Source: Hyphomicrobiales bacterium | Lineage (GTDB): Bacteria; Pseudomonadota; Alphaproteobacteria; Rhizobiales; Rhizobiaceae | Direction of reading: 5' to 3' | Length of the DNA: 64,000 nt | NCBI GenBank assembly: GCA_900468805.1 | Contig: UEIF01000004.1 | Location: 143,490-207,489, forward strand | Shown: positions 1 through 12,560 of the stretch, one piece after another | Layout: each line of letters begins with the position of its first letter | How positions within the stretch are numbered: position 1 is the first letter of the stretch | Translations under genes and position numbers: made by a program | Notes under the pieces: generated by a model | The model's database searches: none | Told to the model about the DNA's origin: nothing | Seen by the model: the letters and a program-made list of their open reading frames with translations, nothing else

Positions 1-412
1 GGCCGCCGGAGAGTGCCGCCGGACGGCGGGCGAGATAGTCCGTCAATCCGAGGATCTGCGCCGTCTCATCGATGCGCTTGTCCTTATCCGCCTGGGAGAG
101 CTTCGCGGTGTAGAGACCGAAGCCGATATTCTGGCGCACGCTCATGTGCGGATAGATGGCGTAATTCTGGAACACCATCGCGATGTTGCGTTGTTTCGGC
201 TCCCGCTCGTTCACCACCTCGCCGCCGATCTTCAGCGTGCCGCCGGAAATGTCTTCAAGGCCGGCGATCATGCGCAGCGTCGTGGACTTGCCGCAGCCGG
301 ACGGACCGACGAAGACCACGAATTCGCCATCGGCGATCGCGAGATCGATGCCGTGCACGACATCCAGCTTGCCGTAACGTTTGACGAGCCCCTGCAGTTC
401 GATATTTGCCAT
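1..412 (-). CDS. Sugar ABC transporter ATP-binding protein (UgpC/MsmK type), partial
   Basis: Only the first 137 codons are inside the window; the gene runs off the left edge. The visible part has a Walker A motif GPSGCGKST at residues 36-44, a Q-loop glutamine near residue 82 ([11 protein letters not shown]) and reaches the LSGG signature exactly at the edge. This is the pattern of the ATPases that energise CUT1 sugar importers. Its ATG shares one base with the TGA of the lyase gene upstream (TGATG), so it is the fifth gene of the leftward operon and is probably translationally coupled. The C-terminal regulatory (TOBE) domain expected in this family cannot be checked here. Confidence 0.9.
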
Positions 413-1926
413 CAGGCGGTCCCCATCAATGCCGTGAATCTGGTTTGAAGTTCCTCAGCAGCGGCGGCTTCGCGCGCTGCGTTTTCCTGCGCATCTGCGG
501 CGAATGCGGCAGCCTTTTCCTGGTAGGCTGCGAGCGCATCCGCCATCGGTGCCGGTGCGGGACCGCCGAAGCGGGCACGGACGGCAACGAAATGTTCCGG
601 CGAGACAATCTCGGCAAACTGCACCTTGTCGATGTCGGGTTTGCGGCCCGCCAGTTCCTCGAAAGCTGTGAGGAAGGGCTCGTAGCCATCATCCGAAAGA
701 CCACCGCCCTTGGCGACCACGGCACGTGCGACGGTTGCGGCAATCTCGTGCGCTTGGCGGAAGGAAAGCCCTTCGAGGCGGACCAGCGAATCCGCCAATT
801 CCGTGATGGTGATGCAGGAACGGCGGATATTGTTTGCCACGCGCTCGGGGTCGATGCTGATCTGGGAGATGAAGGCGGCCAGAAGGTCGAGTACACGCCC
901 GGCCGAGTGGAAGGCCTCATAGCCCATGCCCTGCGTTTCGCCCTCGCTATCGTTCATATCGGTGAAGGGCGTGTTGTGCATGACGTCGAGCACGGTGCGG
1001 GCACGGCCGAAGGTCTGGCTTGCCAGATGGCGCATGTGCTCGATCGGCACCGGATTGCGCTTCTGCGGCATGATCGAGGAGATCTGCACCAGCGCATTCG
1101 GCACATAGATCTGGCCAACCTCGAAGCTCGTCCAGAACTGGAAATCCTGAATCAGGCGGCCGAGATGCAGGAACATCAGTTCGATCGCGCTATAGGTCGA
1201 GGTCGTATAGTCGACCGCCGCGATGCAGCTGTAGGAATTGCGCAGCGGCGCGGCAAAGCCGAGGAGTTCGGCGACACGGGCGCGATCGATCGGGAAGCCG
1301 GACGTGGTGATCGCCGCGGCCCCCATGGGGCTCAAATTGACGATTTCGCGGGCTTCGGCAAAGCGCTCGATATCGCGGATCAGCACCTCGATCGCCGCCG
1401 AGAGATAGTGGCCGAAGGTGGTCGGCTGGGCCGGCTGGCCGTGGGTGTAGGCGACGATCAGCGTCTCCTTCTCCCAATCAGCCGTGGCGATCATCGCGTC
1501 GAGCAGCTTGCGCGCCTTGACCATCAGCGCATCGATACGCTCCTTCAGACCGAGTTTGAAAAGCGTATGGTCGATATCGTTGCGCGAGCGCGCCGTATGC
1601 AGGCGGCCGGCGATATCAACACCGATGCGGGCTTTCAACTCCTTCTCGATCAGGAAGAAGAAGTCCTCCACCTCTCCGGTATAAACGAGCTTTTCCGGGT
1701 CGATGTCGCGGTCGATCGCCTCAAGTGCACCGGCGATCTTGCCCGCCTGCTCGCGGTCGAGAATGCCGGTTTCGACCAGCATGACGAGATGAGCGCGGTC
1801 GATGCGGCGGAAGCCATCGACATGATGCGTCTTGGCGCCGTCGAAGAGCGGCTTCAGCACCGTTTCCTTATAGACCGGATCAGGAAAGACGCTTCTGTCG
1901 GCAAGGCGCGGATTGGTTTCGGTCAT
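412..1926 (-). CDS. Argininosuccinate lyase-family protein (ArgH paralog) in a sugar ABC operon
   Basis: A 504-residue member of the fumarase/aspartase superfamily, which eliminates fumarate from N-substituted aspartates or similar compounds. Visible hallmarks are HTARSRND at residues 110-117, THGQPAQP near 161-168 and the mobile catalytic loop [10 protein letters not shown] at 283-292 with its serine. It departs from housekeeping ArgH at conserved spots: HTGRSRNDQ is HTARSRNDI, and the loop is followed by V where ArgH usually has D. Housekeeping argH is normally not inside a sugar transporter operon, so this is more likely a catabolic C-N (or C-O) lyase acting on the imported compound. It lies 3 nt downstream of the permease stop. 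Substrate unknown; family assignment is firm. Confidence 0.85.
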
Positions 1927-1929
1927 GTT

Positions 1930-2787
1930 CTACCCCTTCAGACCGGCCAGCATAACGCCGCGCACGATGTAGCGTTGCAGCACCAGGAAGACGAGCAGCG
2001 TGGGCAATGTCGCGAGTGCCGCACCGGTCATGATCATTTCCCATTGGATGGATTGCTCGACGGCAAAGCTCGATAGCCCGACCGGCAGCGTGTAGAGTTC
2101 GCGGCTGGTGGTGACGATCAGCGGCCAGAAGAAGGCCGTCCAGTTGCCGAGGAAGGTGAAGATGGCCAGCGCCGAGAGTGCGGGTGTGACCAGCGGCATC
2201 GCCACTTTCCACCAGATCTGGAACTCGTTCAGGCCATCGATGCGGGCGGCTTCGAGAAAGTCGTTCGGGACCGTCTCGAAGAACTGCTTCATCAGGAAGG
2301 TCCCAAAGGCCGTCATCATGCCCGGAAACATGATGCCCCAGTAGCTATCCAGCCAACCGAGCTGCGCCGACATCAGGTACCAGGGGATGACGAGCATTTC
2401 CGTCGGGATCATCAGCGTCGAAAGGATCGCCAGGAAGATCAGGTAGCGGCCGCGGAATTCGAACTTGGCGAGCGTATAGCCGACGAGACTGTCGAAGAAG
2501 ACGTTCGAAAGCGTGACCGTGCAGGCAACGATCGTCGAGTTCAGGAACCAGCGCATGAAGCGGCCGTCGGAGAGGACGGTGATGTAGTTCTGCAGCGTCG
2601 GCTCGGCCGGAATGAGGCGCAGGTCATAGACCTGCCCTGCCGTCTTCAGCGAGGTCGAGAACATGAAGAGCAGCGGCGAGACCATGATGAGGCCGCCGAT
2701 GAAGAGCAGCGTCCAGATGATGATCGCGCCGGGACGGATATTGGCTTTCGGCAGCGGCGCCGCGGTATTGGTCGTCACGGCACTCAT
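1930..2787 (-). CDS. Sugar ABC transporter permease (UgpE/MalG-like)
   Basis: A 285-residue inner-membrane permease with about six hydrophobic segments and the cytoplasmic EAA loop EAARIDGLNEFQIWWKVAMP that docks on the ATPase. The second permease of CUT1 importers has this size and layout. The start at 2787 was chosen because its ATG overlaps the TGA of the other permease in an ATGA junction (2784-2787); a longer frame upstream only reads through that gene. It forms a heterodimeric channel with the product of 2784-3731. Confidence 0.92.
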   Translation of the reverse strand: MSAVTTNTAAPLPKANIRPGAIIIWTLLFIGGLIMVSPLLFMFSTSLKTAGQVYDLRLIPAEPTLQNYITVLSDGRFMRWFLNSTIVACTVTLSNVFFDSLVGYTLAKFEFRGRYLIFLAILSTLMIPTEMLVIPWYLMSAQLGWLDSYWGIMFPGMMTAFGTFLMKQFFETVPNDFLEAARIDGLNEFQIWWKVAMPLVTPALSALAIFTFLGNWTAFFWPLIVTTSRELYTLPVGLSSFAVEQSIQWEMIMTGAALATLPTLLVFLVLQRYIVRGVMLAGLKG

Positions 2788-3731
2788 TTGCGTTCCCTCA
2801 GGATCCAGAGCTGCAGCAGGGAAACGCAAAGCAGGATGGCGAAGAGCACCACGGTCTGCGCCGCCGCATAACCCATGTTGTAGGATGAAAAGGCCGTCTG
2901 ATAGATCATCAGAACCAGAGGCTTGGTCGATCCGAGCGGTCCGCCGGGATCGTTCGTCGTCATGTTGTAGACCTGGTCGAAGATGCGCAGGAATCCGATC
3001 GAGGAGAAGACGACGAGGAAGACGGTCGTCGGTTTCAGGAGCGGCAGCGTGATCTTCCAGAGGATCGGCCATTCGCCGAGTCCATCGATCTTCGCAGCCT
3101 CATAGAAGGTGCTTGGAATGGCGCGAAGGCCAGCCATGAAGATGATGATCTGGAAGCCGAGCCCCGCCCAGATGGAGGTCACCATGATCGACGGCAGCGC
3201 CTGGTCGACGGAGCGAATGAACTGCTGCTGCGGCAGGCCGATCATGCCGAGCACATCGTTGATGACGCCAATCGGGGCCGGCTGGTAGAACCAGCGCCAG
3301 ACCCAGGCCATGGCCGCAGCCGTCGTCAGGAACGGCAGGAAATAGAGCGCGCGGATCAGCCCGTGCAGGAAGCGCACGCGATCCAGGAAGAAGGCCACGA
3401 CGAAAGATATGATCAGGCTCAGCGGCGTGCCGATAATGAGATAGGTGAAGGTGTTACGGAAAACCTTCCAGAACTGCGGGTCGTTATAGAGCTTCACATA
3501 ATTGGCGACGCCGATGAATTTCGGCGGTTTCATCAGGTTCCAATTGGTGAAGGACAGGTAGAAGGCCTGCAGCGTCGGATAGAAGCGGATCACGCTGTAA
3601 AACAGGATCGGCAAGGCCAGGAATGTCCAGACCCAAACGAGGCGCTTTTGGCGCATCGTCAGCCGATCCCAGAACGATCCGGCGGGACGGCTGACAGCCG
3701 CCCCTTCCGTATTCGCGGGTGCGGAGCTCAT
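2784..3731 (-). CDS. Sugar ABC transporter permease (UgpA/MalF-like)
   Basis: A 315-residue permease. After a hydrophilic N-terminus of about 30 residues it has roughly six membrane segments and the EAA loop EAAKIDGLGEWPILWKITLP. It is the UgpA/MalF-type partner of the next gene. It starts 9 nt after the binding-protein stop with AAGGGACGG as a plausible ribosome site, and ends in a 4-bp ATGA overlap with the second permease. Confidence 0.92.
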   Translation of the reverse strand: MSSAPANTEGAAVSRPAGSFWDRLTMRQKRLVWVWTFLALPILFYSVIRFYPTLQAFYLSFTNWNLMKPPKFIGVANYVKLYNDPQFWKVFRNTFTYLIIGTPLSLIISFVVAFFLDRVRFLHGLIRALYFLPFLTTAAAMAWVWRWFYQPAPIGVINDVLGMIGLPQQQFIRSVDQALPSIMVTSIWAGLGFQIIIFMAGLRAIPSTFYEAAKIDGLGEWPILWKITLPLLKPTTVFLVVFSSIGFLRIFDQVYNMTTNDPGGPLGSTKPLVLMIYQTAFSSYNMGYAAAQTVVLFAILLCVSLLQLWILRERK

Positions 3732-3740
3732 GGCCGTCCC

Positions 3741-4997
3741 TTATTTGCTCTTGGCATTGTCGATGATTTCCTGCTCGGCCGTTGCGGCCTGGGCAATGGA
3801 ATCCTCGGGCGACTGTCCCTCGAGCAGCACGCGGTTGACCATGTCGATAGCATTCTGGCGCTGGCCAGCTTCATCGACGAAGAGCGAGGTGTGGGAGTAA
3901 GCGAGCGCCTTGAGGAACGGCGCATAGATCGGGTTCTTGAGGTTCTCGTCGGTCAGCGCGGCTTCGCGGCGAGCCGGCAGTTCGCCGACGGTGCCGAGCC
4001 AGACCTTCATGGCTTCCGGCGAGGTCACGTAAGCGAGAAACTTCTTGGAGGCCTCCAGCTTTTCGCCTGACACCTTGGCGCCGATACCGTTGGCAAAATA
4101 GCTTGCATAGTTGGAGCGCAGGCCGTCGGCATTGGCCGGCAGCTCGGTTACACCCCATTCGAAATCCTTGATGCTTCCGAAGGAGCCAAGGCGGAAAGTG
4201 CCGTCGATCGTCATCGCCGCCTTGCCGCCACGGAATGCGGCCTGGCCTTCATCCATGAAACCGGTCTGGCCGACCTTCTTTTCAGTCTGCAGGCTGGTGT
4301 AGAATTTCAGCGCCTTGACGCCCGCGTCGCTGTTGTAGGTCACCTTGGAATAGTCTGCCGTGTAAGGCTCGCCGCCATACTGGCGGATCAGCACTTCACG
4401 CCACCACTGGTGATCCTGGCCGCCCATGTCGAGCGTCGTGCCTTCGACGGCAATATTGCCGGCGGCATCGCGCTTTACGGTCTTTTCGGCAGCAGCCACG
4501 AATTCATCGACGGTCTGCGGCGGCTTGTTCGGGTCGAGGCCGGCTTCCTGGAAGAGCTTCTTGTTGTAGAAAAGCGCCAGCGAACGCACAGCGGTCGGCA
4601 GGCCGTAATAATCGTCACCGCGCTTCATGGCTGATACGATCGGGAAGAAATCCTTCTCGATCTGGTCATGCGGGAAGGCATCCGTCGGCAGCGGCTGCAG
4701 CAGTCCGCCGGCGATGAACTGGTCGAGCCAACCGTAGAAGAGCTGCATCACATCGGGACCGTTGCCGGCAAGATTGGCAGCAACGACGCGCGTCTGGTAG
4801 TCGGCATAAGGGAATGTCGTCTGCTTGACGGTGATGTCGGGATTGGCCTTCTCGAAATTGGCGATCAGCTGGTCCATCGCCTTGACGCGGGTGTCGTAGA
4901 CATACTGCCAATATTCGATTTCGACCGCTTGGGCGCTATTGACCGCAACCATGCTGATGCCCGCGAACAGGCCGGCAAATAAAACTCCGCGACGCAT
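3741..4997 (-). CDS. Periplasmic sugar-binding protein of CUT1 ABC transporter
   Basis: Extracytoplasmic solute-binding protein family 1 (UgpB/MalE-like), 418 residues from the chosen ATG. The first ~24 residues form a classic signal peptide (MRRGVLFAGLFAG... ending NSAQA), followed by the mature start VEIEYWQYVYD. A GGAGGG ribosome site lies about 7 nt upstream of this ATG; a longer frame back to 5042 would bury the signal peptide and is rejected. Conserved SBP features include GNGPDVMQLFYGWLDQF and a late KVWLGTVGELPARREA segment. As the first gene of the operon it delivers the unknown substrate to the two permeases. Confidence 0.93.
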   Translation of the reverse strand: MRRGVLFAGLFAGISMVAVNSAQAVEIEYWQYVYDTRVKAMDQLIANFEKANPDITVKQTTFPYADYQTRVVAANLAGNGPDVMQLFYGWLDQFIAGGLLQPLPTDAFPHDQIEKDFFPIVSAMKRGDDYYGLPTAVRSLALFYNKKLFQEAGLDPNKPPQTVDEFVAAAEKTVKRDAAGNIAVEGTTLDMGGQDHQWWREVLIRQYGGEPYTADYSKVTYNSDAGVKALKFYTSLQTEKKVGQTGFMDEGQAAFRGGKAAMTIDGTFRLGSFGSIKDFEWGVTELPANADGLRSNYASYFANGIGAKVSGEKLEASKKFLAYVTSPEAMKVWLGTVGELPARREAALTDENLKNPIYAPFLKALAYSHTSLFVDEAGQRQNAIDMVNRVLLEGQSPEDSIAQAATAEQEIIDNAKSK

Positions 4998-5182
4998 ATT
5001 ATCCCTCCATGCCGAGCCGGCCTTTATGCCGCTCGCGCTCATCTGGTTCCCCAGGGCCTTCCGCGATTTTGCCGGCGCCCCGATTTGATTCGCTCGGGAA
5101 GATGGAACTGAGGCTCCTCCTTCCTCGGCATCGCAAATGCGACCTATTCAGGCTGGTTGGGATGGAGGGCTTTGTCAATAAG

Positions 5183-5200
5183 ATAATTTAGTTTAATTAT
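5183..5200. promoter_or_regulatory. Candidate ROK-repressor operator (AT-rich inverted repeat)
   Basis: Arms ataattt / taattat (one mismatch in 7) are separated by 4 nt in a strikingly AT-rich patch of the 263-bp gap between the divergent binding-protein and ROK genes. ROK regulators such as NagC bind AT-rich inverted repeats, so this is the best operator candidate for both directions. Inferred from position and symmetry only. Confidence 0.45.
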
Positions 5201-5260
5201 TCTATTGCCCCTTTCATGATATGGGCGTTATCCATAGCGACAGAGACGGGGGGCGGAGAG

Positions 5261-6481
5261 ATGAGACGGCAATCCGGCAAGCAGCAGATCGCTATGGGCA
5301 AGAACCCTGAGCGCAGCCGCGACCACAATCGCCGTGTCGTACTGGATCTCGTGCGCATGCATGGCTCGCTCGGCCGCATGCATATCGCCAAACTCACGCA
5401 TCTGACCGCGCAGGCCGTCGCCAATATCGTCGATGAACTCGTCAGCGAAGATCTGCTGATGGAAATCGGCCGCCTGCGCTCCGGCCGGGGCCAACCGCCG
5501 ATCCAGTTTGCCGTCAACCCAGATGGTGCCGTCACGATCGGCGTCGAAATTGCCGCCGACCATATGGTGACGACGGTGCTCGACCTCTCCGGCAAGGTGC
5601 GCTCCGAGACCATAATGCCGGTGGAAAACACGAGCCCGGAGCATATCGTTCCGCTCTTTGCCGGCGAGGTGAAGAAGGTCCGCAAGCGTTTCCCCTCCAA
5701 GCTTCTCGGCATCGGCGTGGTCATGCCCGGCCCCTTCGAAATCGAGGGCATGAGCTCGGTCGGCCCGACCACCCTGCCCGGCTGGAGCAGCATCAATCCG
5801 GCCGCCATCCTCAGCGAAGCCAGCGGCGAGACCGTCATTGTCGAAAACGACGCGAACGCGGCGGCTGTCGGTGAGCGACTGTTCGGTGCGGGTCGCGCCA
5901 TTTCCAATTTCGGCATGATCTATTTCGGAGTCGGCGTCGGTCTCGGCCTCATCCATGACGGTGCGCCCTTCCGCGGCGCTTTTGGCAATGCCGGCGAAAT
6001 CGGCCATGTGGTCGTCGCCCCGCGCGGCAAACCCTGCCCCTGCGGCCAGCGCGGCTGCCTGGAGCGCTATGCCTCGCTGCATGCACTGAAGGAAAAGCTC
6101 ACCGAGGCCGGCTATGCGAATGCCGATTTCGCGGCGGTCGAGGTGCTGCACCGCAATGGTAACCCCGTTGTGAAGGAGTGGATCGCAGAGACCGCGGACT
6201 ATCTTTCACCGATGGTGGCAATGCTGGAGAACATCCTCGATCCGGAAACGGTCATCCTCGGCGGCGCCCTGCCCGATGCCGTCATCGACGAGATCGTCGC
6301 GGCCATGCAGACGCTCCCGGTCTCCGTTGCCAGCCGACGTACGCGCGCCCTGCCACGCGTCATCCGCGGTCAGACGGGCCAGCTCACCGCCGCGCTTGGC
6401 GCAGCCGCACTGCCGCTTTTCGAAGCCGTGACCCCCAAGCTCGACATTTCACCGACCGCCGTCGCCGATAACGCAGCTTAA
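5261..6481 (+). CDS. ROK-family transcriptional repressor
   Basis: A 406-residue NagC/XylR-type regulator: an N-terminal winged helix (about residues 15-75, RDHNRRVVLDLVRMHG... then TAQAVANIVDELV) fused to a sugar-kinase-like ROK domain. The ROK part has the glycine-rich VVMPGPFE segment, ENDANAAAVGE and the zinc site CPCGQRGCLE. Such proteins bind a sugar or sugar phosphate as inducer. It is divergent from the ABC operon and followed 35 bp later by the PIG-L gene, so it probably controls both. The ATG at 5261 follows a GGCGGAGAG stretch; a start at 5216 adding 15 residues is possible. Confidence 0.9.
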   Translation: MRRQSGKQQIAMGKNPERSRDHNRRVVLDLVRMHGSLGRMHIAKLTHLTAQAVANIVDELVSEDLLMEIGRLRSGRGQPPIQFAVNPDGAVTIGVEIAADHMVTTVLDLSGKVRSETIMPVENTSPEHIVPLFAGEVKKVRKRFPSKLLGIGVVMPGPFEIEGMSSVGPTTLPGWSSINPAAILSEASGETVIVENDANAAAVGERLFGAGRAISNFGMIYFGVGVGLGLIHDGAPFRGAFGNAGEIGHVVVAPRGKPCPCGQRGCLERYASLHALKEKLTEAGYANADFAAVEVLHRNGNPVVKEWIAETADYLSPMVAMLENILDPETVILGGALPDAVIDEIVAAMQTLPVSVASRRTRALPRVIRGQTGQLTAALGAAALPLFEAVTPKLDISPTAVADNAA

Positions 6482-6516
6482 GATGCGCGCCGCCGGTCTG
6501 CCCCAATGGAGGAACC

Positions 6517-8913
6517 ATGCTGACCGATCGAGACCGTATTGAGAAACAGAAGCGGAGCCTTTCGCTCACGCGGCTGCACCGGGCGCTGTCGCGCCTGACC
6601 TCGACCGTCACCATGATGAATACCGGCGCGCATCCCGACGACGAGCACAACGGCCTGCTCGCCTACCTGCGCCTCGGCCTCGGCATGCGCGTCATCGTCG
6701 CCTGCTCAACACGCGGCGAAGGCGGGCAGAATGCGCTCGGCCCGGAACGGCTCGGCGCGCTCGGCATCCTGCGCAGCCGCGAGATGGAAGAAGCTGCCCG
6801 GGAGCTCGACGGCGACGTCCACTGGCTCGGCCACGGCCCTGATGATCCGATCCACGATTTCGGCTTCTCGAAGAATGGTGACCGGACCTTCGACCGATGG
6901 GGCGAGGAGCGCATCGTGGAGCGGCTGGTGCGGGCCTACCGCGCCGAGCGTCCCGATATCGTGCTGCCGACCTTCCTTGATGTGCCAGGCCAGCATGGGC
7001 ACCACCGTGCGATGACACGGGCGGCGGAAACGGCGGTTGGACTTGCTGCCGATCCCACCGCTTTTCCCGAACATTTCGATGAGGGTCTGACGCCGTGGCA
7101 GGTCGCGAAATTCTATCTGCCCGCATGGTCGGGCGGCGGCGATACCTATGATGACGAAGTGCCGCCACCGGCCACGACGCTGCCGCTCGAAGCCACGGGT
7201 CTCGAACCTGTCAGCGGCGTCAGCTATGCCCATGTCGGCGAGTGGTCGCGCTATTACCATGCCTCTCAGGGCATGGGCCGCTGGCACGATATCGGCGACA
7301 ATGACTGGCCGCTGCATCTGAAGCTCAGCGCCGAAGGCTCGGTTAGGGAAACCTCCATTCTCGATTCCCTTCCCTCGTCGCTTGCCGGTCTGGCACGCGA
7401 AACGGAGCTGCCGCAGGCCGTTGTCGATGCATTGATGCGGGCGGATGGTGCAATCGGCAAGGCGATCGAGCGTTTTCCGGAACGATCGGCCATCGTTGAA
7501 GCGTTGCTGCAGGCGGCGCATCAGATTGAAAAGGCGCTCGAGAAAGCACCTGAAACATTCCTCGAGACGCATGGACACCGCCTGCGGCGCAAGCTGGTGG
7601 AAATCGATGCAGCGCTTTGCGAGGCCGAACAGATTTTCGTCCGGCCCGTGGCCGAACCCGCCGCGCTTTCGCCTGGTGCGTCCGGAACGCTGATCCTTCA
7701 TCTCGGCGGGAATGCGGGAACTGCCGTTGCGGACGCAGACATAAGACTGCCGGAAGGCCTTTCGGCAAACCTGAAGGAAACTTCGCCGCAGCGAATCGTC
7801 TACGCACTGACCTCGGCATCGGACGCGCCGCTCACGCGGCAGTATCAGCCGGGATGGTCGAGCCTCGGCGGCAACGGTAATGCATCAGTCGACGTCAAGG
7901 CGCAGATCGGCAGCCGTTCGGTAAGAGTGACTGTGGATCTTGAGGAGCCGCTTACAGTCGCGCCGCAGCACTCGCTGAACCTTCATCCCAATGCCATCAT
8001 CATCCCCTTGGATGGCGAGAGGTCGGAGTTGACGATCAAGGCCGCATCCGAAGGAAGCGTCGGCTTTTCCGCATCGCCCGGCTGGGCGGTCAGGCAGGCT
8101 GACGGCGCGCTTACGCTTTCACCGCCCGCCTCGATAACGCCCGGCCTCGTCACCATTTCGCCACTTGTGGACGGACAGCCGGCGATGCGCGTCTCGCCGA
8201 TCGCCTATCCGCATATCGGCCGCACGAGCTTCCGCGAGCCGGAACTGCTGCGCGTCCTGGCGCTCGATCTCAAACTGCCTGATGGCGCCAGGATCGGCTA
8301 TGTCGGCGGCGGTGCGGATCGCGTCGGGCTCTGGCTTGGCCGCATGGGGCTCGATGTCACCGAACTCGATGCGCAGGCGCTTTCCGGCGATCTCTCCCGC
8401 TTCACCACTATCGTCGTCGGCATCTTCGCCTTCGGCATCCGCAAGGATCTGGCAGCTGCAACCTCGCGCCTGCATTGCTTCGTCGAAGAGGGCGGCAATC
8501 TTCTGACGCTCTATCATCGCCCTGTTGACGGCTGGCAGCCGGACGCCACCCCGCCGAAGCGGATCGATATCGGTTCGCCCTCGGTCCGCTGGCGGGTGAC
8601 AGACCCCAAATCAGAGGTGACAATGCTGGAGCCTGCGCATCCGCTGCTGCAGGGACCGAACAGGATCACACCCGCCGATTGGGATGGGTGGGACAAGGAA
8701 CGCGGCCTCTATTTCGCCGCCCGCTGGGACGATGCCTATGTGCCGCTTCTTGCGATGCACGACCCCGAAGAGCAGCCGCTCAAGGGCGCATTGATTTCGG
8801 CTGCGATCGGCAAGGGTCGCCATACGCATACGAGCCTCGTGCTGCATCATCAACTCGACAAGCTGACATCAGGCGCGTTTCGGCTGATCGCCAATCTCGT
8901 CCAGCCTGCCTGA
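6517..8913 (+). CDS. PIG-L family zinc deacetylase with long C-terminal extension
   Basis: A 798-residue protein, far larger than a lone PIG-L/LmbE enzyme (about 230-300 residues). The N-terminal domain has the zinc motif AHPDDE at residues 38-43 and a downstream His cluster (GQHGHHRAMT), as in enzymes that remove N-acyl groups from amino sugars. The middle (about 380-560) looks beta-rich and repetitive in character. The last ~220 residues (RIGYVGGGADRVGLWLGRMGL..., then FTTIVVGIFAFG and EEGGNLLTLYH) resemble a ThuA / class-I glutamine-amidotransferase-like fold. No signal peptide, so cytoplasmic. GGAGG lies just upstream of the ATG. It probably deacylates the substrate imported by the divergent transporter. 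Confidence 0.85.
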   Translation: MLTDRDRIEKQKRSLSLTRLHRALSRLTSTVTMMNTGAHPDDEHNGLLAYLRLGLGMRVIVACSTRGEGGQNALGPERLGALGILRSREMEEAARELDGDVHWLGHGPDDPIHDFGFSKNGDRTFDRWGEERIVERLVRAYRAERPDIVLPTFLDVPGQHGHHRAMTRAAETAVGLAADPTAFPEHFDEGLTPWQVAKFYLPAWSGGGDTYDDEVPPPATTLPLEATGLEPVSGVSYAHVGEWSRYYHASQGMGRWHDIGDNDWPLHLKLSAEGSVRETSILDSLPSSLAGLARETELPQAVVDALMRADGAIGKAIERFPERSAIVEALLQAAHQIEKALEKAPETFLETHGHRLRRKLVEIDAALCEAEQIFVRPVAEPAALSPGASGTLILHLGGNAGTAVADADIRLPEGLSANLKETSPQRIVYALTSASDAPLTRQYQPGWSSLGGNGNASVDVKAQIGSRSVRVTVDLEEPLTVAPQHSLNLHPNAIIIPLDGERSELTIKAASEGSVGFSASPGWAVRQADGALTLSPPASITPGLVTISPLVDGQPAMRVSPIAYPHIGRTSFREPELLRVLALDLKLPDGARIGYVGGGADRVGLWLGRMGLDVTELDAQALSGDLSRFTTIVVGIFAFGIRKDLAAATSRLHCFVEEGGNLLTLYHRPVDGWQPDATPPKRIDIGSPSVRWRVTDPKSEVTMLEPAHPLLQGPNRITPADWDGWDKERGLYFAARWDDAYVPLLAMHDPEEQPLKGALISAAIGKGRHTHTSLVLHHQLDKLTSGAFRLIANLVQPA

Positions 8914-8923
8914 GGCGATAGGC

Positions 8924-9802
8924 ATGGATGGCAGAATGGATGGCTCTGCTGCGGCCAGAGACGGCCGTCTCGGCATTCTCTGGCTGCTTTCCGACACAAC
9001 GCTGGTGACCGGCATGACGGTGCTGGTGAAGATGCAGGGTGCATCCTATCCGGCGATCCAGCTCGTCTTCATCCGCGCGCTGATCGGGCTCGTCCTTATC
9101 CTGCCGTTGATCTGGCGGCATCGGCGGCAGCTAGCCAATTCCAGGGATCCGCTGCGCAACATCATGCGCATCAGCTGCAATGCCATTGCGCTGACCAGCA
9201 ATTTCATCGCACTCACCATGCTGCCGCTTGTCCTGGTCAATGCGCTCGGTTTCACGCGGCCACTCGTTTCGATGCTGATGGCCGTCGTCATGCTCGGAGA
9301 AAGGATCAGCCGGTGGCGGTGGATCGGCGCGGTATTCGCCTTTGTCGGCGTGCTGATCATGCTGGCACCGGATACGTTTGCCTGGAACCTCGGGCTGGTA
9401 GCTGTGCTGCTCTCCATCATCTTCGGGGCACTGGCGACGATCCAGACCCGGATGCTGCATTACGAAAACACGACCGTCATGATGGTCTTCTATACGGCCG
9501 GCCTGACGGTCATTACTTTCATCCCTGCGCTTTTCGTCTGGCAGCCGGTACGCAGCGAAGACTGGCCTGCGCTGCTCGGCATTGGCCTTCTGGCACAACT
9601 CGGGCAATTCTGCTTCCTGCGGGCCTATCAGATCGCCAGCGCCAGCCTGCTCGCTCCGTTCGGTTATCTGTCGATCGTCTTTGCGACAGCGAGCGGTTAT
9701 TTCTTCTTCGACGAAGTGCCCGATCTTCGCACGCTCATCGGCATCGTCGTCATTATCGGAACGCTGCAGGCGGTCGCCTTTCTGGAACGGCGGAAAAATT
9801 AG
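8924..9802 (+). CDS. EamA/DMT-family membrane transporter
   Basis: A 292-residue protein with about ten hydrophobic helices arranged as two EamA repeats (roughly residues 15-145 and 155-288). The second repeat carries the typical ending LAPFGYLSIVFATASGYFFFDEVPD. Members export or import small metabolites, and the substrate cannot be read from sequence. It starts 10 nt after the PIG-L stop, so it is likely co-transcribed with it and could move a product or by-product of that pathway. Confidence 0.85.
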   Translation: MDGRMDGSAAARDGRLGILWLLSDTTLVTGMTVLVKMQGASYPAIQLVFIRALIGLVLILPLIWRHRRQLANSRDPLRNIMRISCNAIALTSNFIALTMLPLVLVNALGFTRPLVSMLMAVVMLGERISRWRWIGAVFAFVGVLIMLAPDTFAWNLGLVAVLLSIIFGALATIQTRMLHYENTTVMMVFYTAGLTVITFIPALFVWQPVRSEDWPALLGIGLLAQLGQFCFLRAYQIASASLLAPFGYLSIVFATASGYFFFDEVPDLRTLIGIVVIIGTLQAVAFLERRKN

Positions 9803-10180
9803 CGCAGGGTCGGATCGACGCTGCCGCGCATCGAATCGCCGGCCACCGAGAGGACGCTGGCGCCCACCTCAGTCAACAGACGCACGAAAGGCTCTTCCAG
9901 CGGCTGGTCGGTCACGAAGGTCTTGATTTCGGAAAATGAAATGCCGGGATAGCGACCAACGCGCCGATCTGGGTGTGGTCGGCCACATAGACATTGGAAC
10001 GACTCAGCGCGGCGAGCCGGATCTTGAGCTGCATCTAGTGCTTCGTGCGCTCGACAAGCCCGTATTCGGCATCGAGGCCGTAGACGCCGATGATCGACAG
10101 GTCGAAGCTGCAGTCGCGGATCACCTCGAATACTTCATCGGCGCAAGAAATGTGCCCAGCGCCCCAATAAGCAGATTTTT
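9799..10180 (-). pseudogene. Decayed DeoR-family sugar regulator (C-terminal half)
   Basis: Read leftward, the sequence gives DeoR effector-domain pieces: IRDCSFDLSIIGVYGLDAEYGL, then an in-frame TAG (about 10036), then LKIRLAALSRSNVYVADHTQIG. The frame then breaks around ALVG/GRYPG, and the next frame ends in EVGASVLSVAGDSMRGSVDPTLR and a TAA at 9799-9801. One nonsense codon, one frameshift and no helix-turn-helix half make it non-functional. The missing 5' half is replaced by the tRNA-Lys promoter region. Its stop overlaps the stop of the convergent EamA gene by 2 bp. Confidence 0.75.
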
Positions 10181-10183
10181 CGG

Positions 10184-10212
10184 TTGACCGCGATAGGTCG
10201 CCTGCATATGTT
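10184..10212 (+). promoter_or_regulatory. Sigma-70-type promoter of tRNA-Lys
   Basis: TTGACC at 10184-10189, a 17-nt spacer, and TATGTT at 10207-10212. The predicted start is about 33 nt upstream of the mature tRNA 5' end. Good match to the rhizobial housekeeping consensus. Confidence 0.6.
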
Positions 10213-10252
10213 CCGCGCACTTCCGGCCGGGGTGCTTCGCACCGCGGAGAGT

Positions 10253-10328
10253 GAGAGCGTAGCTCAGCCGGTAGAGCAACTGACTTTTAATCAGTAGGTC
10301 TCGGGTTCGAACCCCGACGCTCTCACCA
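10253..10328 (+). tRNA. tRNA-Lys (anticodon UUU)
   Basis: A 76-nt cloverleaf. The acceptor arms gagagcg / cgctctc pair over 7 bp, and discriminator A is followed by a genome-encoded CCA. The D-arm is AGCTCAGCCGGTAGAGC, the anticodon stem ACTGA/TCAGT encloses loop CTTTTAA with anticodon TTT at 10286-10288, and the T-arm carries GGTTCGAACCC. All invariant positions look intact. Confidence 0.97.
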
Positions 10329-10451
10329 TAAACTTTTCATTTCCGAGCTTTGCGACGCATCCAGCGAGCCGATGCAGTCCATTCATCGATTAATTTCGCT
10401 CAAAATGATAACAAATCTTGCCAACCGAGAGCATCGGGCGATATTCCACCG

Positions 10452-10799
10452 ATGGACGATTTTGATCACATAACTGGCCGACAGTTGGCGGCCGCCCGTG
10501 CTTTGCTGGGGATGGGTCAGGTTGAGTTGGCCGGCAGAGCAAATGTATCTGCTCCGACCCTGCGCCGTATGGAAGCCAGTGAGGGCACCGTCGAGGGTAT
10601 TCGCAACAACGTCGCTTCAGTCGTTGCGGTTTTGGAAGCCGCCGGCATTACCTTCCTGGATGGGAACTACTCCGGTTCCGGCGGTCCAGGTGTGCGCCTG
10701 ACGCAATCCACCGGCGCGTCGATCGATGTGCAAGAACGCGAGACGATTCAGTATCGCGAGTTTTATGAGAACGATGCACCTCCTGGTGCTGGAGGTTAA
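10452..10799 (+). CDS. Small XRE-type helix-turn-helix protein
   Basis: A 115-residue protein. Residues ~8-65 form an XRE-like HTH (GRQLAAARALLGMGQVELAGRANVSAPTLRRME), followed by AVLEAAGITFLDG and a glycine-rich, polar tail containing GVRLT. This layout is common in small rhizobial regulators whose partners are encoded alongside. The ATG at 10452 begins right before the HTH; a TTG start at 10350 would add an unconserved-looking leader. Its last codons contain the GGAGG ribosome site of the next gene, so the two are coupled. Confidence 0.7.
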   Translation: MDDFDHITGRQLAAARALLGMGQVELAGRANVSAPTLRRMEASEGTVEGIRNNVASVVAVLEAAGITFLDGNYSGSGGPGVRLTQSTGASIDVQERETIQYREFYENDAPPGAGG

Positions 10800-10800
10800 A

Positions 10801-11070
10801 ATGGCGAAAACACCCAAAGAACCAAAGCTTGAGCATTCCGATTTCTCCGGCGAGTTCGAAGACGACGGCGTAACCGTGCTCGTCGACATACATCGGCCGG
10901 CGGGCACGAATGGCGATTGGACTCTCGAGGTCATTTCACAAACCGAAGTCGTGACGACCTGGGAAGATGCATTCGCCACGGATCTGGAAGCTTGGGAAGA
11001 GTTCCTGGCCACCGCAGAACGAGATGGCGTGCGAAGCTTTCTCGATGAGGATGAGCCGCTGGTGCATTGA
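10801..11070 (+). CDS. Small acidic hypothetical protein, coupled to the HTH gene
   Basis: An 89-residue acidic protein of unknown family, probably cytoplasmic (no signal or membrane segment). The central part (VTVLVDIHRPAGTNGDWTLEVI) could be a short beta sheet; the C-terminal half (DLEAWEEFLATAERDG) is predicted helical. It starts 1 nt after the HTH gene stop with GGAGG inside that gene, so the pair is a two-gene unit. A toxin-antitoxin-like or regulator/partner role is possible but not shown. Confidence 0.65.
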   Translation: MAKTPKEPKLEHSDFSGEFEDDGVTVLVDIHRPAGTNGDWTLEVISQTEVVTTWEDAFATDLEAWEEFLATAERDGVRSFLDEDEPLVH

Positions 11071-11197
11071 GGGGATCGAACCGTTCCCTAGTGTCTCGTC
11101 GCGGCATACCAATCCGCGCACTGCCACATGAAGAGACCTTGATGAGCTTCCAGCACTGGTGCCGGAAGCTCATCAATGCGAATCGCAATGCTCGCCG

Positions 11198-11377
11198 TCA
11201 GTAGCTGCAGGAGCGACCATCCCTAGGCCTGAAGCCATCCGCACAGGCGCGATTCATCGAATCTCCCGGCACGTAGCCTGAGGCGGAGCCGTACGAATTC
11301 GGGGGAGTTGCACATGCCGTGAGCAGCGAGCTGCCGATCAGCGCTCCGGCTGCTACTAATGCCCGAAATCTGCTCAT
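11198..11377 (-). CDS. Small lipoprotein (59 aa)
   Basis: A 59-codon gene: a short basic start MSRFR, a hydrophobic stretch LVAAGALIGSSLL, and a lipobox LTAC with the lipidation cysteine at residue 22. The mature part is short and polar with two further cysteines (CADGF and SCSY). A strong GAGGAG ribosome site lies about 9 nt upstream. It resembles small cell-envelope lipoproteins of rhizobia; no function can be given. It would be anchored in the outer or inner membrane after Lsp cleavage. Confidence 0.65.
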   Translation of the reverse strand: MSRFRALVAAGALIGSSLLTACATPPNSYGSASGYVPGDSMNRACADGFRPRDGRSCSY

Positions 11378-11424
11378 CGATGTTTCTCCTCGGTGGATGT
11401 TTCCGCGTCAATCTCTCACGCTAG

Positions 11425-11453
11425 CGCATACCAGCACCAAGCCGTCATCGCAA
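11425..11453 (-). promoter_or_regulatory. Candidate promoter of the 59-aa lipoprotein gene
   Basis: On the minus strand TTGCGA (11453-11448), a 17-nt spacer and TATGCG (11430-11425). This puts transcription start about 40 nt before the lipoprotein ATG. Motif match only. Confidence 0.35.
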
Positions 11454-11810
11454 CTGAACGACAGTACAAGCCTGCTCTCGGGCGCTGTAGCCGGCAGGCC
11501 GGTAAAGTAGCGGGAGATCCGGCGTCAGCCTCGTATATCCACCGGCCGGACCTCCCGACATTCGCAGTGGGGTGCCCGCAAATGCCGGGCAATACCACCG
11601 GTCACGCCCGAGTCGATCCATTCAGAGAACCAAAGATGGTTTGCGCGCGGTTAATATCCACATGCGCTGTCCCATGTTGGGATAGCGGAGCCACCTCGAG
11701 GCTGCGGCAATTTGGAGATGCGGCCGGCTGCGATCAGCGCAAAAAGGTGATTGGCAATCACCCCTTTGCGGCGCTAGGAACATCGCTCAGACTGCTGCCG
11801 GAGAGAATGC
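11454..11810. other. Non-coding gap before ccdA with a 17-nt palindrome
   Basis: No convincing gene on either strand. The only structure I see is a perfect inverted repeat at 11746-11762 (arms GGTGATT/AATCACC, loop GGC), 48 bp before the ccdA start. It is too short and lacks a T-run for a good terminator and could be an operator. Confidence 0.4.
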
Positions 11811-12560
11811 GTGTCGATTGCCGATATTTCCCTTTGGAGCGCGCTGCTTGCCGGAGCGCTTTCCTTCCTCTCGCCTTGCGTGCTTCCACTCGTTCCGCCC
11901 TATCTCTGTTATATGGCGGGCGTTTCCGTCGAGCAGTTCCGCGGTGGCGGCACGGTCGCCGCAGCACCGAATGTACGGCGCGGCGTGCTCTTTTCGGCGC
12001 TTTTCTTCACCCTCGGCTTTGCGACCGTCTTTGTGGCTCTCGGCGCAGGTGCCTCGACGATCGGCATGGTGTTGCGTCAGCATCTCGATCTGCTCTCGAA
12101 GATCGGCGGCCTGATCATCATCATCATGGGGCTGAATTTTCTCGGACTTTTCCGGATCGGCCTGCTGGCACGGGAAGCCCGCTTCCAGGGCAATGGAAAA
12201 CCGGCAACGCTGACGGGCGCCTATATCATGGGACTGGCCTTCGCGTTCGGCTGGACGCCTTGCATCGGGCCGGTACTCGGGGCAATCCTTGGCGTTGCCG
12301 CATCGCGTGAAACGGTTGGCTCCGGCGCAGGCCTGCTTGCCGTCTATTCTCTGGGGCTTGCTGTTCCCTTCTGGATAGCCGCCGGGTTCTCCGGAGCGTT
12401 TATGCGCTTCCTGTCGCGCTTCCGCCGCCACCTCGGCACGGTGGAGAAGATCATGGGCGTCTTCCTCGTGCTGACCGGTCTCGCCTTCCTGCTCGGATGG
12501 GTCAGCAATGTCGCGATCTGGTTCCAGCAGACCTTTCCAATCCTGATGCAGATCGGCTAA
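11811..12560 (+). CDS. ccdA: Cytochrome c biogenesis protein CcdA
   Basis: A 249-residue polytopic protein of the CcdA/DsbD family that passes electrons from cytoplasmic thioredoxin across the membrane to keep apocytochrome c or other periplasmic thiols reduced. The two redox cysteines are in conserved settings: SFLSPCVLPLVPPYLCYMAG near residue 22 and FGWTPCIGPVLG near residue 147. Six membrane helices are visible. Translation starts at GTG, with GGAGAG 6-11 nt upstream. No partner thioredoxin or cytochrome gene is adjacent, so it is probably a stand-alone gene. Confidence 0.9.
   Translation: MSIADISLWSALLAGALSFLSPCVLPLVPPYLCYMAGVSVEQFRGGGTVAAAPNVRRGVLFSALFFTLGFATVFVALGAGASTIGMVLRQHLDLLSKIGGLIIIIMGLNFLGLFRIGLLAREARFQGNGKPATLTGAYIMGLAFAFGWTPCIGPVLGAILGVAASRETVGSGAGLLAVYSLGLAVPFWIAAGFSGAFMRFLSRFRRHLGTVEKIMGVFLVLTGLAFLLGWVSNVAIWFQQTFPILMQIG

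Follow-up and report, generated by a model that had tools for sequence, protein, structure and literature searches.

A conserved PIG-L fusion protein within a predicted amino-sugar and fumarate catabolic gene cluster of Hyphomicrobiales

MshB and BshB are PIG-L enzymes of thiol biosynthesis. Mca and Bca, as given in parts of PMC4101496, are PIG-L amidases of thiol S-conjugates, and bacillithiol is described in a passage of PMC8945050 as the alpha-glycoside of cysteinyl-glucosamine with L-malic acid; the bacillithiol passages of PMC5270733 do not concern its degradation. The stretch of DNA analysed here (the window, 64,000 nucleotides; positions 143,490 to 207,489 of contig UEIF01000004.1, assembly GCA_900468805.1, Hyphomicrobiales bacterium) encodes a PIG-L fusion protein which is like MshB, Mca, BshB and Bca in its fold and zinc-site residues and, by prediction, in acting on an N-acyl glucosamine. 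It differs from them in length, with 798 amino acids against 217-284 positions in the models of MshB, Mca and BshB2, and in setting, as it lies in a catabolic-looking cluster whereas MshB and BshB serve biosynthesis. It is likely, in our view, that this protein is an amidase in a cluster for amino-sugar and fumarate catabolism; that its substrate is of the glucosaminyl-malate or bacillithiol type is put forward tentatively, with somewhat less than even confidence. The cluster is a conserved arrangement of known superfamilies which was found to be undescribed, and it suggests a likewise undescribed way of living on molecules that contain glucosamine, such as the bacillithiol of other bacteria. 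Neither the cluster nor bacillithiol as a nutrient is described in the titles and abstract openings listed by searches of open-licence PMC articles, a body of literature that leaves subscription journals and preprints outside.

Architecture of the fusion protein

The gene and two of its domains are as follows.

6517..8913, + strand: PIG-L fusion protein, 798 amino acids (open reading frame, Pfam, structure model, fold search)
6517..7386, + strand: PIG-L/LmbE zinc-hydrolase catalytic domain, residues 1-290 (PF02585, LnmX alignment, motifs, fold)
8281..8910, + strand: ThuA/GATase1-like domain, residues 589-798, with no conserved cysteine (model, fold search, cysteine columns)

The gene starts with ATG, before which a GGAGG-type ribosome-binding site was recognized by eye; no signal peptide was seen, also by eye, at the N-terminus of the protein. 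Membership of the PIG-L/LmbE superfamily is indicated by the match to PF02585 at residues 36-173 (59.8 bits, gathering cut-off 28.2), by the zinc-site motifs and by a fold match of Z 18.8. The motifs AHPDDE and RGEGGQ were found in all 95 PIG-L sequences and GQHGHH in 94 of the 95. Mapping by hand, from the LnmX alignment and the residue list in the relevant part of PMC4101496, gives H39, D42 and H163 as predicted zinc ligands and D41 as the base, with H160 and R66 also in the predicted site. The only NCBIfam matches were to enzymes acting on glucosamine amides, namely Mca, MshB and BshB2.

The initial annotation, made from the sequence alone, had proposed a PIG-L domain fused to about 500 extra residues, with a long beta-rich part and a C-terminal Rossmann-like end resembling ThuA or an amidotransferase. 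All three proposals were upheld by structure prediction and fold search, which found ordered domains in the tail rather than disordered or unrelated sequence. The extra part comprises about 510 residues. In the AlphaFold2 model (37 aligned sequences; mean local confidence, pLDDT, 87.1; predicted template-modelling score, pTM, 0.85) the zinc hydrolase (about 1-290) is followed by a three-helix linker (300-370), two beta-sandwiches (about 373-474 and 488-583) and the ThuA/GATase1-like domain (589-798). Residues 28-288 matched LnmX (5bmo, Z 18.8) and MshB (18.5) in VIA-align, then diacetylchitobiose deacetylases (Z about 17) and BshB (about 16); residues 371-583 gave weak matches to Ig-like modules (Z about 8). 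By sequence, residues 292-798, and also 552-798, matched no Pfam family up to E=10, the ThuA family included, and a search of the PDB returned the single match LnmX, confined to the PIG-L part, with none for the tail.

Modelled alone (pLDDT 93.5), the C-terminal domain matched STM3548 (Z 17.3), STM1381 (16.7), the GATase1-like 3rht (16.4) and the ThuA-like 1t0b (15.3), with 190-195 residues aligned in these four best rows at a root-mean-square deviation of 3.0-3.3, which places it in the ThuA/GATase1-like fold; within the full model the same residues gave Z 17.7, 17.2 and 15.6 for STM3548, STM1381 and 1t0b. Class I amidotransferases were lower matches (Z 13-14). The domain shares the fold of STM3548, STM1381, 3rht and 1t0b, yet it is only 13-17% identical to them, has no conserved cysteine or Pfam match, and is fused to PIG-L. 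When it alone was used in a tblastn search of plasmids (E<=0.01), all 21 records matched at the places of full-length PIG-L proteins, with no free-standing or differently fused copy.

A catalytic cysteine, which the initial annotation had asked after, is absent: in alignment A1 (16 PIG-L sequences) and alignment A2 (37 sequences), no column after residue 290 holds cysteine in more than seven of 16 or three of 37 sequences, respectively. The position of the nucleophile elbow, placed by eye at about 666-667, is Tyr-His and coincides with none of these columns. A working class I glutamine amidotransferase end was rejected as unlikely, since the cysteine of the Cys-His-Glu triad is not conserved. 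Because no conserved cysteine follows residue 290, a second hydrolytic step through a cysteine nucleophile appears unlikely. The "multi-step" character suggested earlier seems to belong to the pathway, the other steps of which lie in neighbouring genes, more than to the protein itself. Carbohydrate binding by the protein is possible. The C-terminal domain is well conserved, with a mean column identity of 77% (alignment A3, whose row set differs slightly from that of A2) and the invariant polar residues W673, R691, K727, E728, R729, H769, H777 and H778; the mean for the whole protein is 65% (A2).

End-to-end alignment was obtained for fifteen homologues, which come from 13 other genomes of the order and are 42-58% identical; the matches in genomes G172 and G026 (late start or broken) were excluded. 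A scan of genome contigs with the fusion found at least 304 stretches encoding some relative (E<=1e-3), showing that it is widespread; the best 80 of these were examined, and in 77 the match spans residue 8 or earlier to residue 795 or later, while L034, L095 and L100 each lack one end. A chance reading frame or a frame-fusion artefact is ruled out by this full-length conservation, and the architecture is an established unit, because relatives align over their full length. The fusion occurs in soil and sea bacteria; plasmid records that are annotated and match it over the full length give it no name beyond "PIG-L (family) deacetylase", next to genes labelled argH. In G026 (67% complete; contig C173, loci L018 and L021) the match is in two pieces, covering query residues 2-328, with one internal TAA, and 349-789; this may be decay or an assembly error.

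The divergent cluster, its lyase and the linked deaminases

The genes around the fusion form two divergent arms. The plus arm consists of the ROK, PIG-L and EamA genes; the minus arm holds genes for the substrate-binding protein, two permeases, lyase and ATPase, followed outside the window by a PfkB-type sugar kinase.

5216..6481, + strand: ROK-family repressor, start perhaps at ATG 5261 (PF00480, position)
8924..9802, + strand: EamA/DMT transporter (profile match)
3741..5042, - strand: sugar ABC substrate-binding protein, CUT1 type (profile matches)
2784..3731, - strand: ABC permease, UgpA/MalF type (profile matches)
1930..2787, - strand: ABC permease, UgpE/MalG type, its start at the internal ATG 2787 suggested by the overlap with the next gene (profile matches)
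412..1926, - strand: predicted fumarate-releasing lyase of the argininosuccinate-lyase superfamily, labelled argH in relatives (profiles, motifs)
1..411, - strand: UgpC-type ATPase, N-terminal part with presumed start, the gene leaving the window (locus L109; open reading frame and BLAST)

A signal peptide was seen by eye in the substrate-binding protein. Conservation of the cluster was counted in the best 80 of the at least 304 relatives, which are 51-89% identical and include close species that are not independent; stop-to-stop reading frames with BLAST labels were used, so paralogues may be confused. In the 77 of 80 loci with more than 6 kb left of PIG-L, genes for the lyase, both permeases, the ATPase and the substrate-binding protein were present in all 77, and the ROK regulator, and with it all seven core genes, in 76. 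A sugar kinase was found in 71 of the 77 (PfkB in 66, ROK in five), the other six possibly being clipped by the 8-kb flank. EamA directly follows PIG-L in 51 of the 76 loci with enough right flank. The same gene order occurs on annotated plasmids of Aminobacter, Rhizobium, Loktanella, Thalassospira, Qingshengfaniella and Parasedimentitalea, and reading frames in an unannotated region of a Neorhizobium record match the cluster too.

The lyase is the constant partner of PIG-L and is wider in spread than it. Among 297 genomes of the order, the own genome counted, PIG-L (E<=1e-20) was found in 16 and the lyase (E<=1e-120) in 24, with all 16 among the 24 (P=6e-21, ignoring kinship; by genera, nine of nine within 12 of 122, 2e-11). 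Among 398 genomes of the phylum, again with the own genome, PIG-L was found in five and the lyase (E<=1e-90) in six, all five being common. The cluster is patchy: at the thresholds used, both genes are missing from three genomes of the genus to which the window belongs.

The argH label on this lyase is likely a misannotation. The protein passes TIGR00838 narrowly (310 against 279.5 bits), and the genome has a separate ArgH gene scoring 615 bits, by which a role of the cluster lyase as the cell's ArgH is ruled out. The stretch GLPLAYSKDMQEDKE of the own ArgH, a segment that presumably binds the arginine part of the substrate, is replaced by a different segment in 84 of 85 cluster lyases, and HNxPFxDxND stands at its position in all 85. 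The ArgH-type segment GLPLAY.KD.QEDKE is not carried by the cluster lyase. HNxPFxDxND also occurs in the four Deinococcus lyases checked and in those of Roseomonas and Terrarubrum; the Bosea, L153 and L157 lyases have other sequence in its place, and a haloarchaeal relative lacks it. ArgH and ethylenediaminedisuccinate (EDDS) lyase belong to the same superfamily and have the SSIMPQK loop in common with the cluster lyase (SSVMPQK in three Deinococcus lyases), and the HT/HI-A/G-RSRND motif is present in 79 of 85; what sets the cluster lyase apart from ArgH is the HNxPFxDxND segment and its co-inheritance with a sugar importer. Its solved relatives include 6g3d, which we take to be EDDS lyase, a C-N lyase. 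On sequence evidence the enzyme is predicted to release fumarate, with a leaving group other than arginine. The names argH and "argininosuccinate lyase" stand in public records (e.g. L103, L105, L106, L107, L108, L125 and L174), probably because the lyase just passes TIGR00838.

Lyase loci were also found without PIG-L. Six of eight such loci in the order comprise L154, L155, L156 and L158, which have a sugar importer and ROK kinase, and L153 and L157, which have another context. The lyases of L153 and L157 are 66-68% identical and have no importer or PIG-L beside them; a second role of the lyase family there is possible. Adjoining the gene for the substrate-binding protein in two PIG-L-less clusters is a metallo-beta-lactamase-fold hydrolase (L155, 12790-13632; L128, 6178-7026), which perhaps replaces the PIG-L amidase.

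Six related clusters, among which the window's own is not counted, either include a glucosamine-6-phosphate deaminase or have one no more than 4 kb away. NagB-I follows PIG-L in Loktanella salsilacus and, in Paroceanicella profunda, overlaps the ROK kinase gene in an operon with lyase and importer. NagB-II follows the ROK kinase in the lyase and importer cluster of Roseomonas haemaphysalidis, follows EamA in Salinarimonas rosea (L080) and, on the opposite strand, in a Rhodobacter metagenome-assembled genome (L072), and in G598 is separated from the lyase by about 4 kb. The NagB-I proteins score 251 and 242 bits (cut-off 236.9) and the NagB-II proteins 274-313, below the equivalog cut-off of 430. 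The linked deaminase of these six clusters suggests that glucosamine, together with fumarate, is the probable product of the lyase. NagB-II occurs somewhere in 13 of 19 cluster genomes (E<=1e-60).

Seven Deinococcus plasmid records hold a lyase of 33-36% identity. In D. wulumuqiensis, D. ficus and D. actinosclerus a large PIG-L, a small PIG-L and a kinase lie in the lyase cluster, and in D. deserti a small PIG-L and a kinase only; a large PIG-L with CBM9 is encoded in D. psychrotolerans, on a plasmid other than that of the lyase. The large PIG-L of D. wulumuqiensis was scanned as PIG-L, NEW3 and CBM9, that of D. ficus is annotated with NEW3 and that of D. actinosclerus as a hypothetical protein; in the two Deinococcus proteins scanned the PIG-L domain is succeeded by NEW3 and CBM9-like domains. 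For the small PIG-L proteins of D. wulumuqiensis, D. deserti and D. ficus the best-matching models are MshB and Mca, with scores under the cut-offs. Some of these Deinococcus clusters (ROK, lyase, large PIG-L, ABC importer, MshB-like PIG-L, PfkB) have the functional parts of the window's cluster, but their PIG-L architecture is other than that of the fusion, and they were possibly assembled separately.

Possible substrates and pathway

The domains, zinc-site residues, conservation of the cluster, departure of the lyase from ArgH and deaminase linkage given above were computed; the substrates, order of reactions, direction of transport and regulation in the following scheme are all ones that we infer. 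The ABC importer would take up an N-acyl-glucosaminyl-L-malate, be it bacillithiol (Cys-glucosamine-malate), its S-conjugates or the precursor N-acetylglucosamine-malate, released by Firmicutes or Deinococcus. As the second step PIG-L, a cytosolic Zn2+-dependent amidase, would cut the N-acyl amide on C2 of glucosamine, and the "argH" lyase would then eliminate the sugar from the L-malyl group to give fumarate and glucosamine. The PfkB or ROK kinase would form glucosamine-6-phosphate, which a NagB-type deaminase would convert to fructose-6-phosphate and NH3. Relatives of EamA include cysteine exporters, and the EamA protein may export cysteine or a cysteine conjugate. The ROK protein would repress the divergent cluster until its ligand arrives, and the ThuA/GATase-like domain and beta-sandwiches would have a non-hydrolytic role in substrate gating, binding or oligomerisation.

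The step from freed glucosamine to a bacillithiol-type substrate is the weak link of this scheme. It is proposed because, to our knowledge, bacillithiol and its precursors are the only natural compounds with both N-acyl-glucosamine and an L-malyl group; on this reading the chemistry uses each gene once. A part for the cluster in bacillithiol synthesis is ruled out in the cluster genomes, as BshC was found in none of the 19 searched (G026, 67% complete, was left out). That Alphaproteobacteria without bacillithiol synthesis import and dismantle the bacillithiol or conjugates of other bacteria, by means of a PIG-L/ThuA amidase, a C-O lyase of a new kind, a kinase for the amino sugar and EamA as exporter of the cysteine part, is a possibility that we regard with some doubt. 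Mycothiol and opine- or EDDS-type compounds were considered as alternative substrates; no inositol gene occurs among the annotations of the examined stretches, in which no search was aimed at one.

A number of observations weigh against an amidase acting on a glucosaminyl-malate in front of a glucosamine-releasing lyase. The involvement of malate or cysteine is reached by inference rather than from direct evidence. The zinc site differs from that of BshB, since Gln159 and His162 stand, by hand mapping, at the positions of Arg109 and Asp112, the former being a substrate contact in BshB according to a part of PMC4101496. The equivalog cut-offs are far from reached (Mca 30.8 against 277.15 bits, MshB 28.9 against 224.35, BshB2 17.6 against 195.25), and the kinases pass none either, their best models being ribokinase, IolC-like, glucokinase-like and fructokinase. 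In enzymes of the argininosuccinate-lyase type the bond broken is in most cases C-N, not C-O. The lyase occurs without PIG-L in eight of 24 genomes of the order, in L153 beside genes for DUF3422, L-lactate dehydrogenase and glycolate oxidase; no PIG-L was found in the examined stretches of the lyase plasmids of Roseomonas, Bosea, Terrarubrum, Shinella and Paroceanicella, and three of the seven Deinococcus lyase loci (D. aetherius, KNUC1210 and D. psychrotolerans plasmid 1) have none alongside. The deaminase is rare by BLAST with one NagB-I and one NagB-II as queries (three of 88 loci, the query locus L105 included), and six of the 19 cluster genomes have no NagB-II at E<=1e-60. The own genome has no NagB-I over the cut-off, and its one NagB-II-like protein (282 against 430 bits) is encoded on another contig.

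The alternative that survives best is an N-acylated amino sugar with an aspartyl group in C-N linkage, such as an Amadori-type or aspartyl-sugar adduct, which PIG-L would deacylate before the lyase breaks the C-N bond to give fumarate. C-N cleavage is common in the superfamily, 6g3d (taken to be EDDS lyase) is among the solved relatives, and the PfkB kinases are weakly similar to fructoselysine 6-kinase (59.6 against 247 bits). The linked deaminases, however, are of the NagB type, with fructoselysine-6-phosphate deglycase far lower (37.8 against 274 and 26.9 against 313 bits), and we know of no natural acylated aspartyl-glucosamine; this explanation is judged unlikely, at about one chance in a few. 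Somewhat less probable still is a plain deacetylase of N-acetylglucosamine oligosaccharides or glycosides in an amino-sugar uptake operon, with the lyase acting on some unrelated side chain or in the salvage of nitrogen. Diacetylchitobiose deacetylases are indeed among the closest folds (Z about 17), and the ABC importer, ROK regulator and kinase would suit any sugar. The lyase, however, lies inside the transporter operon and accompanies PIG-L no less faithfully than the importer does (all 77 loci; all 16 genomes), and it is therefore probably part of the main route. A two-activity fusion, in which the C-terminal domain would catalyse a second reaction through a Tyr/His-rich rather than a cysteine site, is improbable, for despite the domain's high conservation and many invariant polar residues it has no cysteine nucleophile, and a second catalytic domain looks dispensable in the Deinococcus clusters, which use a NEW3/CBM9 PIG-L or a bare PIG-L.

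Were the glucosaminyl-malate proposal true, it would give a function to an uncharacterized fusion and correct the ArgH misannotation, add an enzyme eliminating a sugar from malate to the argininosuccinate lyase/fumarase superfamily, and reveal cross-feeding on bacterial redox thiols.

Predicted operator, second PIG-L copies and a tRNA gene

5183..5200, no strand assigned: predicted ROK operator ATAATTTAGTTTAATTAT, between the divergent arms (pattern counts in relatives)

An AT-rich palindrome was recognized in the divergent region, and the pattern ATAATYTASTTKARTTAW, which was both derived from these divergent regions and counted in them, occurs with at most two mismatches in 80 of 86. The reversed pattern was found in seven of the 86 regions; elsewhere in these loci, 85 stretches were scanned and none contained ATAATYTASTTKARTTAW. 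In the own genome of 7.6 Mb the only perfect site is that at 5183-5200; a further site, with two mismatches, lies elsewhere, and the reversed control gave none. Because the only perfect site lies there, the predicted ROK regulon in this genome is probably the cluster alone.

A second PIG-L copy, 43-45% identical, was observed a few kb away in the opposite orientation in eight of the 77 loci (L066, L085, L089-L092, L096 and L101), and a second copy also in G202 and G259 (L019, L020 and L159), where that of L159 adjoins an amino-oxidase (DAO) gene and is near another sugar-binding protein. Such a copy may be a paralogue that acts on a related substrate. In an Rfam scan of window positions 1-12000, in which nothing else reached the gathering threshold, a tRNA gene was identified downstream of the cluster at 10253-10325 (RF00005, 75.9 bits).

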